This document shows positions 61,761 through 64,000 of a DNA stretch of 64,000 nt, in pieces. Source of the stretch: Antiquaquibacter metalliresistens (GTDB taxonomy: Bacteria > Actinomycetota > Actinomycetes > Actinomycetales > Microbacteriaceae). The stretch spans positions 124,001-188,000 of the forward strand of contig NZ_JARGEM010000001.1 of NCBI RefSeq assembly GCF_029211225.1, written 5' to 3'. Each line of letters begins with the position of its first letter. Positions within the stretch are counted from its first letter, which is position 1. A program made the translations under genes and the position numbers. Under the pieces are notes generated by a model. It was given only the letters and a program-made list of their open reading frames with translations. It did no database searches and had not been told where the DNA came from.

Positions 61761-62333
61761 TCAGCGTGGCCAGGCGGCCGCGAAGCGGCTGAGCAGGGCG
61801 GCGAACTGCTCTCGTTCGGCATCCGTGAAGCCGACGAGCGCCTCGGTCACCGCCGAGCGTCGGGATGCCCTCGCCGCCTCCAGCACGCCGCGGCCGACCT
61901 CGGTGATCGTGACGACGCTGCGGCGAGCATCCCGGGGATCGACGGCGCGATCGACCAGGCCGCGTTCGGCGGCGTCGTTGACCAGTCGGGAGGCGCGGGG
62001 CTGATCGACCCCGATCGCGGCCGCCACCTCCGAGATGCCCAGCCGGGTGTCGACGGATGCGGCGGCGAGCGCCTCGAGCAGCCGGAACCGCGCGGCCCCG
62101 CCGAGCGAGCGGTCATGACCGCGGCCGGGACCGTGCCCACCCGCCCACGGCGGAGGGCCGTCGCCCCACGGGGGGCGACGCGGGCCCTCGTCATCGGCAT
62201 CGCGCGCCCACGGGGGCCGGTGCGCGCTGGGGCCGTGGCCACCCGGGCGGTGGGCGCGGCCCGGGGTGGGGCGCAGCAGGAGGAGGGCGTCCTCGATGCG
62301 GCGCACGGCATCCGCTTGACTTTCGGAATCCAT
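61761..62333 (-). CDS. MarR-family regulator with a Gly/His/Pro-rich N-terminal region
   Basis: A 190-residue protein. After a short helix (AVRRIEDALLLLR) comes a low-complexity stretch (about residues 22-72) rich in Gly, His, Pro, Arg and Trp, then a standard winged helix: RFRLLEALAAASVDTRLGISEVAAAIGVDQPRASRLVNDAAERGLVDRAVDPRDARRSVVTITEVGRGVL. The His-rich part could bind metal or be a flexible linker. Start ATG 62331-62333 follows TATAGT by seven bases. It is divergent from the two other MarR-type genes. Confidence 0.82.
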   Translation of the reverse strand: MDSESQADAVRRIEDALLLLRPTPGRAHRPGGHGPSAHRPPWARDADDEGPRRPPWGDGPPPWAGGHGPGRGHDRSLGGAARFRLLEALAAASVDTRLGISEVAAAIGVDQPRASRLVNDAAERGLVDRAVDPRDARRSVVTITEVGRGVLEAARASRRSAVTEALVGFTDAEREQFAALLSRFAAAWPR

Positions 62334-62365
62334 GTATGTAACTATACAACTGTTGTCATATGACA
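62316..62365. promoter_or_regulatory. Divergent promoters and palindromic operator of the MarR cluster
   Basis: Minus strand: TATAGT (62346-62341), seven bases, ATG of the first marR. Plus strand: TTGACT (62316-62321), 17 bases, TAACTA (62339-62344), with overlapping TATACA at 62343. Over the expected start sites lie two palindromes, ACAACTGTTGT (62346-62356) and the perfect 12-base TGTCATATGACA (62354-62365). The region is unusually AT-rich. Autorepression by one of the MarR proteins is likely. Confidence 0.6.
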
Positions 62366-62425: not shown

Positions 62426-62740
62426 ATGAACACCCCCAACGACACCGACACCCCCACCCACCCCCGACGCCCCGGCTTCTGGCTGCGCGCGATCGAACAG
62501 CGCAAGCACGCGCTCGCGCACGAGTACCGCAAGGGCCTCGGCGACACCGCCCGCGAGGGCATCAGCGACGAGGACTACGCCACCACCATGGCCACCCTCG
62601 AGCGGATGGCGCGCAATCTCGGCTGGGACGAGGAGCAGACCCCGTTCGGGCGCGGCTTCGGCGGCCACGGCCGCCCCGGCATGCGCGGTCACCGATTCGG
62701 GCCGCGTCGCCCCTCCCGCGACGAGGCGCCCGAGGCGTAA
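62426..62740 (+). CDS. MarR-like small protein lacking the DNA-binding domain
   Basis: A 104-residue protein. RPGFWLR (15-21) and EGISDEDYATTMATLERMARNLGWDEE (44-70) closely match RPIGFWLK at the N-terminus and EGISEQEYEQAIAVLERLARNLGYED at the C-terminus of the MarR protein encoded just downstream. The winged-helix middle (about 70 residues) is absent. A Gly/His/Arg-rich tail (71-104) follows. Since these shared segments form the MarR dimer interface, it may form heterodimers that cannot bind DNA. The ATG at 62426 follows a GA-rich ribosome binding stretch. Confidence 0.7.
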   Translation: MNTPNDTDTPTHPRRPGFWLRAIEQRKHALAHEYRKGLGDTAREGISDEDYATTMATLERMARNLGWDEEQTPFGRGFGGHGRPGMRGHRFGPRRPSRDEAPEA

Positions 62741-62743
62741 CGT
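62738..62743 (+). promoter_or_regulatory. -10 hexamer TAACGT formed on the upstream stop codon
   Basis: TAACGT begins with the TAA stop of the small MarR-like gene and lies six bases before the ATG at 62750, so the full-length MarR gene can be transcribed independently as a leaderless message. Confidence 0.45.
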
Positions 62744-62749
62744 CGAGAC

Positions 62750-63169
62750 ATGAACGCACCTCGACCGATCGGATTCTGGCTCAAGCTCGTCGACCGCCTG
62801 ATCGACGAGCAGTTCGCCTCGACTCTTGAGGAACACGGCGTCACCCGGCGCCAGTGGCAGCTGTTGAACGTGCTCGCTCGCGAGGCGTCGACGGTGGAGC
62901 AACTGGATGCCGCGGTGGCGCCATTCCTGTCGACCGACGACCAGGAGTCCTCGGTCGAGCACCTCACCGAGCTCATCGAGTCGGGCTGGGTGACCACGAC
63001 CGTAGCCACCTACGAGATCACGGAGCGGGGCCGCGGCGCCTTCGAGCGCCTCGTCGACGTCGTCGCGGTGCAGCGCACCGTCATGGCGGAGGGCATCAGC
63101 GAGCAGGAGTACGAGCAGGCGATCGCCGTGCTCGAGCGCCTGGCCCGGAACCTCGGCTACGAGGACTGA
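62750..63169 (+). CDS. MarR-family transcriptional regulator
   Basis: A 139-residue winged-helix protein: N-terminal helix IGFWLKLVDRLIDEQFASTLEEHGVTRRQWQLLNVLA, recognition region SSVEHLTELIESGWVTTT, wing and YEITERGRGAFERL, then the C-terminal dimer helices with EGISEQEY (114-121) and LARNLGYED. It is the full-length counterpart of the preceding small protein, nine bases upstream. It converges on the carotenoid elongase gene with a one-base gap; in corynebacteria a MarR protein (CrtR) controls carotenoid genes, so a similar role is possible. Confidence 0.82.
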   Translation: MNAPRPIGFWLKLVDRLIDEQFASTLEEHGVTRRQWQLLNVLAREASTVEQLDAAVAPFLSTDDQESSVEHLTELIESGWVTTTVATYEITERGRGAFERLVDVVAVQRTVMAEGISEQEYEQAIAVLERLARNLGYED

Positions 63170-63170
63170 A

Positions 63171-64000
63171 CTAGGCGGCGAGCCGCCACCAGATCAACAG
63201 CATCGTCACGAGAAACCCCGTCGCGAAGTTGAGCCAGAGGAACCGCTTCCAGCCGCGGTTCGCGGACTCGCAGGTGGCATCCGTCACGTTCCAGAACTGC
63301 GCGCAGCTGATCGCGTAGGGCAACGCGAGGATCGCCGCGAGCGGTCCCGGCCACTGCGTCACCAGCAACAGGGCCCCTGCCAGCAAGTAGAGCACCACCG
63401 AGAGCCGCGCGGTGGCGCGAGCCCCGATGACGGTCGCGATGGAGGAGATCTGCGCCTCGCGGTCGGCGGTGACATCCTGCACGGCACCGAAGGCGTGCGA
63501 GGCCATGCCCCAGAGGAAGAACGCGCCGAGCAGCGCCCAGAGCTGCGGGGTGAAGACCGCCCCGGCGAGCACGAGGCCGTAGACGGCGGGCGAGACGAAG
63601 TGCGTGCTCGAGGTGATCGAGTCGAGGAAGGGCTTCTCCTTGAAGCGCAGGCCCTTCGCCGAGTAGGCGACCACCGCGAACAGGCTGATCGCGAGCACGA
63701 GCCAGCTCAGCGGTGAGCCGACGGCGACGAGATACACCACGAAGGGCACCGTGGTCACGATCGAGGCGATGATCGTCGGTCGGTGCATCCTGGTGTCGAG
63801 CACCGCGCCCTCGACCCCGCCCTTGCGCGGGTTGCGCAGGTCGGACTCGTAGTCGAACACGTCGTTGATGCCGTACATCGCGAGGTTGTAGGGCACGAGG
63901 AAGAAGACGGTGCCGAGCACGAAGGTCAGGTCGATACTGCCGGTCGTCAGCAGGTAGGCGGCCGCGAAGGGGAACGCGGTGTTGACCCAGCTGAGCGGGC
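63171..64000 (-). CDS. crtEb: UbiA-type prenyltransferase, probable lycopene elongase of C50 carotenoid synthesis (partial)
   Basis: At least 276 codons of a membrane prenyltransferase; the start lies beyond the right edge. SWVNTAFPFAAAYLLT, the first Asp-rich motif NDVFDYESDLRNPRKGG, and the second motif DVTADREAQISS are visible, with about eight hydrophobic segments. The NDVFDYESDLRNPRKGGVEG sequence is that of lycopene elongases (CrtEb/LbtB-type), which add C5 units to lycopene for decaprenoxanthin-like pigments. Other carotenoid genes would be expected beyond the window. Confidence 0.82.
   Translation of the reverse strand, partial: PLSWVNTAFPFAAAYLLTTGSIDLTFVLGTVFFLVPYNLAMYGINDVFDYESDLRNPRKGGVEGAVLDTRMHRPTIIASIVTTVPFVVYLVAVGSPLSWLVLAISLFAVVAYSAKGLRFKEKPFLDSITSSTHFVSPAVYGLVLAGAVFTPQLWALLGAFFLWGMASHAFGAVQDVTADREAQISSIATVIGARATARLSVVLYLLAGALLLVTQWPGPLAAILALPYAISCAQFWNVTDATCESANRGWKRFLWLNFATGFLVTMLLIWWRLAA

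Follow-up and report, generated by a model that had tools for sequence, protein, structure and literature searches.

MarR proteins, widespread one-component sensors of bacteria, are generally regarded as responding to small ligands or to oxidation. The window, a stretch of 64,000 nucleotides from Antiquaquibacter metalliresistens, holds three MarR-like reading frames in a row, at 61761–62333, 62426–62740 and 62750–63169 (Table 1), and the middle one raises the question of what a protein reduced to MarR-type terminal helices might do, and with which of its neighbors it might do it. A preliminary description, which had placed all three frames correctly, proposed that the small protein titrates the adjacent full-length protein. 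Its observation is right and stronger than it was stated; its interpretation is half right and thus partly supported.

Table 1 Features of the regulatory locus, in positions of the window.
Feature	Position	Strand	Remarks
Divergent MarR repressor, 190 aa, canonical winged helix	61761–62333	−	G/H/P/R-rich stretch between first helix and winged helix
Operator site 1, TGTAACTATACA	62337–62348		3 nt upstream of divergent MarR start codon
Operator site 2, TGTCATATGACA	62354–62365		Perfect palindrome; identical in 11/11 genus loci
Small winged-helix-less MarR-like partner, 104 aa	62426–62740	+	Helices at residues 16–43 and 48–64; tail from about residue 70
First predicted helix, residues 16–43, read as alpha1 joined to alpha5	62471–62554	+	Fusion point putative
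Second predicted helix, residues 48–64	62567–62617	+	Homologous to C-terminal alpha6 of MarR-like partners
G/H/R-rich tail	62633–62737	+	Low prediction confidence; length variable; weakly constrained
MarR-fold protein, 139 aa, acidic recognition helix, short wing	62750–63169	+	9 nt downstream of small gene

Both ends of the small protein resemble those of its downstream neighbor, as had been noticed at the outset. The C-terminal motif EGISDEDYATTMATLERMARNLGWDE matches EGISEQEYEQAIAVLERLARNLGYED of the neighbor at 14 of 26 positions (54%; pairwise E 1e-8), and the N-terminal RP-GFWL segment beats 2000 of 2000 self-shuffles (z 8.3), the homology of this helix resting on the shuffle test because profile comparisons align just the C-terminal 33–37 columns. 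The middle is missing, also as described: the small protein has zero domain matches in Pfam and NCBIfam and zero to a winged-helix model built in this analysis, and AlphaFold2, supplied with 12 orthologues, predicts two helices only, followed by a poorly predicted tail. Confidence in this monomer model is modest (mean pLDDT 64, pTM 0.25; about 67–85 for blocks inside the helices), and a Foldseek search against the PDB returned no match to it, as expected for a two-helix piece. The predicted model of the neighbor shows a complete MarR fold (mean pLDDT 77, pTM 0.65) with helices at residues 7–28, 33–44, 49–59 and 69–77, a short wing, and helices at 92–112 and 118–134, which is the full MarR order. 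Its model resembles many MarR structures, the best being ST1710 with DNA (3gfi; VIA-align Z 14.8, rmsd 3.3 over 133 residues); its Pfam matches stay below the curated cut-offs. Set against this order of helices, the small protein reads as alpha1 running into alpha5, then alpha6, with the exact alpha1/alpha5 joint being putative. The small protein thus lacks the winged helix-turn-helix that lies between the terminal helices in the MarR family and has terminal dimerization helices homologous to those of MarR-like proteins, which supports its assignment as a dimer-helix-only relative of that family.

The helices of the small protein are under purifying selection. Among 11 sequences of the genus, mean pN/pS is 0.35 over the 49 codons of the helix core and 0.82 over the tail, where the alignment is unreliable. 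Twelve sequences share 28 invariant columns, one of them being the start residue chosen in this analysis. A decaying gene without function might be suspected from the short length, the variable tail and the lack of a known domain; given the constraint on the core, the invariant columns and the presence of the gene in two clades beside the same neighbor, we consider such decay most improbable.

That neighbor is the divergent MarR. Small proteins of this type were found in 11 of the 27 genomes of the genus (E at most 5.3e-21), and orthologues of the divergent MarR in exactly those 11 (E at most 3.1e-34; next best match 1.9e-8); by hand calculation, such exact co-occurrence has a chance of 1 in 13,037,895 if genomes are independent, which they are not. 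All ten fetched pair loci of the genus have the gene order of the window (divergent MarR, small gene, 62750-type gene), with −1 to 44 nt between the last two genes as against 9 nt in the window. Sixteen genomes lack the pair, and at the ten of these loci that were fetched the 62750-type gene is accompanied by the same genes for transporter and prenyltransferase, the small gene and the divergent MarR being missing from all ten. Through this joint presence and joint absence, the two genes behave as a two-gene cassette.

A search of the named genome collection gave 16 loci, nine of which were contigs or genomes already in the sample; one locus (L116) has a winged-helix partner and another (L117) is a distant match. 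The other five (L108, L111, L112, L113 and L115) group with L003 as a second clade, whose small proteins likewise have no winged helix and whose six small genes all lie opposite an orthologue of the divergent MarR, in divergent orientation. Locus L115, in which the operator and first helix are missing, appears to be wrongly assembled but was kept. A single-sequence search found no 62750-type protein in these six genomes, the two weak matches (E about 0.006) lying in unrelated frames of 750 and 1210 aa, and none was found at 1e-6 in ten further genomes with winged-helix-less partners (g76, g50 and f7, described below). All 16 tested genomes outside the genus that have a winged-helix-less partner are therefore without a detected 62750-type protein. 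Since the pair occurs in the second clade without a detected protein of this type, the conserved mate of the small protein is the divergent MarR and not the adjacent gene, so the preliminary description keeps its dimer-helix-only relative and loses its mate. It had also raised the possibility of a recent deletion confined to this genome, which the 11 genus genomes and the second clade contradict. The small gene is genetically linked to the divergent MarR, as a SinI-type antagonist should be to its target. An isocitrate lyase/PEP mutase-like gene (identified by eye) recurs near the pair in both clades that have the small protein (L064:2593-3477, L102:287-1132, L108:4099-4932 and L112:4430-5260).

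The charge of the downstream protein also bears on the choice of mate. The segment that runs from recognition helix to wing has a net charge of −3 to −6 in all of the 21 aligned 62750-type orthologues, compared with −1 to +3 for the same segment in six other MarRs of the genome. The protein thus lacks the basic recognition helix and wing used for DNA contact, which makes it a doubtful DNA binder and argues that it is not a standard one, with the proviso that charge alone cannot prove the point. Titration of this protein by the small one would suit two adjacent and probably co-transcribed genes whose products share motifs at both ends. We nevertheless consider it decidedly unlikely, given the acidic recognition helix, the absence of a detected protein of the adjacent type from the six second-clade and ten further genomes, and its presence at all ten fetched genus loci that lack the pair.

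The divergent MarR matches Pfam MarR_2 above the cut-off and has a canonical winged helix with a recognition helix and DxR wing. In its alignment, G-V-D-Q-P-R and S-R are invariant in 14 of 14 rows and the net charge from recognition helix to wing is +1 to +2 in all 14; the recognition helix VD[QR]PR[AT][ST]R is retained by 70 of 70 orthologues. Profile comparison aligns the small protein with it weakly, in the expected alpha5/alpha6 register (38 columns, E 0.0045, probability 7.7%). On its own strand, a TATAGT box precedes the start codon of the divergent MarR by 7 nt, and the operator is 3 nt away from that codon (window 62334–62346), an arrangement that suggests a leaderless transcript.

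Between the two start codons lies a twin palindrome, two 12-bp TGT-N6-ACA sites separated by a 5-bp spacer. The palindromic operator of the preliminary description is therefore real, with its extent corrected from 62316–62365 to 62337–62365. All 11 genus loci have the 5-bp spacer, which elsewhere measures 4–6 bp, and at least two sites within about 110 bp occur at 25 of the 32 scanned loci, a count that leaves out L164–L201; 200 shuffles average 0.07 such loci and never exceed 2. No such operator stands between the transporter and the 62750-type gene at any of the ten fetched pairless genus loci. The genome contains a single exact match to the double site with its 5-bp spacer, which makes local control probable; with at most one mismatch the pattern occurs at 2 places, as does a reversed control pattern, and the genome scan alone thus does not show enrichment. 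A regulon of many operator copies was rejected on the single exact match, for that spacer only. A promoter scan found no sigma-70-like site, and the repeat search did not pick up the operator. The local circuit with one operator, proposed at the outset, is in these respects supported.

How far does the pair extend? Among the genomes sampled, orthologues of the divergent MarR are present in 24 of 249 from the family and, at E 1e-18, in 45 of 396 from the order; seven of these 45, the weakest, are probably other MarRs. Two repressor matches at E about 1e-20 (L202 and L203) served as outgroup only, with no partner-type match in their fetched stretches, and five other order-level matches of similar strength were left out of the sample. 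Among 70 orthologue loci, a MarR-like partner is divergent from the repressor at 69; the remaining one (L197) does not enter the label count, since its repressor frame start was mis-called and its partner not read. The repressor is absent from the contig of L093, which is in no count. The winged helix is carried by 34 of the 69 partners, namely 20 compact ones whose C-terminal tail is rich in G/H/R, 11 in which a long G/H-rich insert separates the HTH helices, and 3 plain ones. The other 35 are without it: 17 of the window type, 14 of f7 (another family of the order), one of g76 and three of g50, in which the G/H-rich part precedes the helices. The winged-helix model scores at most 5.9 bits in 34 of these 35 and 10.9 bits or more in all 34 partners that carry the winged helix. 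These scores are partly circular, since the training set of the model took in the 62750 family and eight of the 20 tailed partners; the insert and plain classes did not contribute to it. One winged-helix-less partner (L184) was labeled separately and not run through the model, and three loci (L173, L175 and L176) were labeled by kinship for the tree, with which a later model run agreed. Almost half of the partners keep the winged helix, so the system does not depend on a loss of DNA binding. Plain 62750-like frames, read by eye, are divergent from a MarR in three genomes from other families and even other classes, which suggests an old origin for the divergent pair. Inserts rich in G/H/P, up to several hundred residues long, were seen between the HTH helices of the L085, L086, L088, L090 and L092 partners, which belong to other genera, and many partner tails at L164–L177 and L185–L196 end in a motif like (F/Y)(E/D)(R/H)GF(A/D)AG(F/Y) after a low-complexity stretch.

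This spread bears on where the small protein came from. Profile comparisons rank the tailed divergent partners from other genera first as matches to its C-terminal helix (E 1.6e-19, 37 columns), followed by the 62750 family (6.5e-13, 33 columns) and the f7 partners (5e-7). Position and sequence together therefore make it the counterpart of the divergent partner and not a clipped copy of the 62750 protein, of which it had been called a reduced relative. A recent in-frame deletion of that protein was likewise rejected, on this ranking and on the occurrence in two clades. On the tree of repressor cores, the fewest partner changes number five (4–6 in bootstrap trees), of which the well-supported branches force only two; the tree has 118 columns for 72 rows, and the long branch of L180 is unsurely placed. 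We tentatively propose, at somewhat less than even odds for the proposal as a whole, a MarR-derived family of dimer-helix-only modulators in Actinobacteria, in which the winged helix was lost several times with repressor and operator intact. Its ancestor would be a divergent pair of a true MarR repressor and a MarR-like partner with poor DNA-contacting residues; the partner would have gained Gly/His/Arg-rich segments before several independent winged-helix losses, giving a MarR-family counterpart of SinI/SinR or Id/bHLH, possibly metal-gated via His-rich tails. Recurrent loss of the DNA-binding part in one gene would amount to a natural experiment on which part of the partner matters. Annotation can miss such proteins: no Pfam or NCBIfam model covers the small protein, and Pfam gave no match for L062 and L180, two further partners without a winged helix.

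The tails vary more than the helices. Each of the 12 small-protein sequences has 5–8 Arg in its tail, and some tails are strongly His-rich, with 15 His in 54 residues at L003 and HGHGHY-like repeats at L180. The tail of the window's own small protein had been likened to the N-terminal stretch of the divergent MarR; the two are alike in composition only, and we claim no homology. Histidine-rich tails would suit a small protein acting alone, as a homodimer that binds metal or nucleic acid and whose gene the divergent MarR merely regulates without contact between the two products. We think this unlikely, because the small protein of the window carries just 2 His among its 37 tail residues, the conserved part is the helix pair, and the partner is MarR-like throughout the order.

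We know of no dimer-helix-only modulator of a MarR-family protein of the kind described here, and in listings of the open-licence literature we found no paper on a MarR heterodimer partner without a DNA-binding domain, nor, for MarR antirepressors and G/H-rich MarR pairs, one on such a system. Eukaryotic Id proteins, dimerization-only relatives of DNA-binding bHLH factors, are an analogy only, their fold being unrelated to that of the small protein. SinR, discussed next, is not a MarR protein, and we know of no homology to MarR for ArmR. In Bacillus subtilis, SinI is a small helix-pair protein resembling the multimerization helices of its repressor SinR, and formation of the complex abolishes DNA binding (PMC3163267). 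The small protein is likewise a helix pair resembling dimer helices, here of MarR type; unlike the SinI/SinR system, its gene is divergent from that of the repressor, its product has a G/H/R-rich tail, and a complex would be expected by analogy. In the LuxR family, TrlR and CerN, relatives without the HTH domain, antagonize the full-length TraR and CerM (PMC11655674); these proteins have a ligand domain, whereas the part absent from the small protein is internal, a winged helix flanked by the two terminal helices. ArmR, of 53 aa, binds the MarR-family dimer MexR and relieves its repression, sitting in the MarR cavity with one molecule per dimer (PMC6018408). The likeness is that of a small protein that acts, or here would act, on a MarR-family dimer.

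We hypothesize that the small protein acts as a modulator of the SinI or TrlR kind, which heterodimerizes with the divergent MarR and weakens its repression, and we give this reading a probability of about 45%. The divergent MarR would bind the twin operator and shut both promoters. The small protein, consisting of terminal dimer helices, would pair with repressor subunits, and because such heterodimers would have one DNA-binding head each, repression at the paired sites would weaken; the 62750 gene just downstream would then be co-expressed. More speculatively, the tail may be a signal site, perhaps for a metal ion, that sets the strength of the effect. We infer both the pairing with the divergent MarR and the sign of its effect, and the opposite sign deserves weight: the small protein might pair with the divergent MarR and strengthen or space its two-site binding, or bind DNA by its Arg-rich tail, in either case tightening repression. 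Two sites at a fixed spacing suit a cooperative complex, and every tail has its arginines; yet the tail is poorly conserved, and SinI, TrlR and CerN, themselves free of DNA-binding domains, act as antagonists (PMC3163267, PMC11655674), so that such a co-repressor or bridge, in its two forms taken together, seems to us improbable. If repression is indeed weakened by heterodimers, a conserved pair with a dimer-helix-only partner would mean that MarR repressors are also controllable by subunit exchange.

The cassette adjoins what looks like a C50-carotenoid operon, its gene names being assigned by eye except for the prenyltransferase, named by NCBIfam. The prenyltransferase (63171–63998) is the last gene of this apparent cluster, at whose end the regulatory cassette lies; beyond the end of the window the cluster appears to continue with a desaturase, cyclase, phytoene synthase, prenyl diphosphate synthase and idi (L118:172-5639). 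In Corynebacterium glutamicum, the MarR repressor CrtR (195 aa, with a long N-terminal part) lies near C50-carotenoid genes, controls the C50-carotenoid operons through a site with a central TTAA, and is encoded divergently mostly from crtE, idi or mmpL (PMC5401885, PMC7432914). By this description the divergent MarR resembles CrtR in size, carotenoid neighborhood and divergent layout, and differs in its TGT-N6-ACA site, as against one centered on TTAA, and in being divergent from a MarR-like partner gene. Beyond the carotenoid cluster lie three genes that by eye resemble type I restriction-modification genes (L118:7785-13935).
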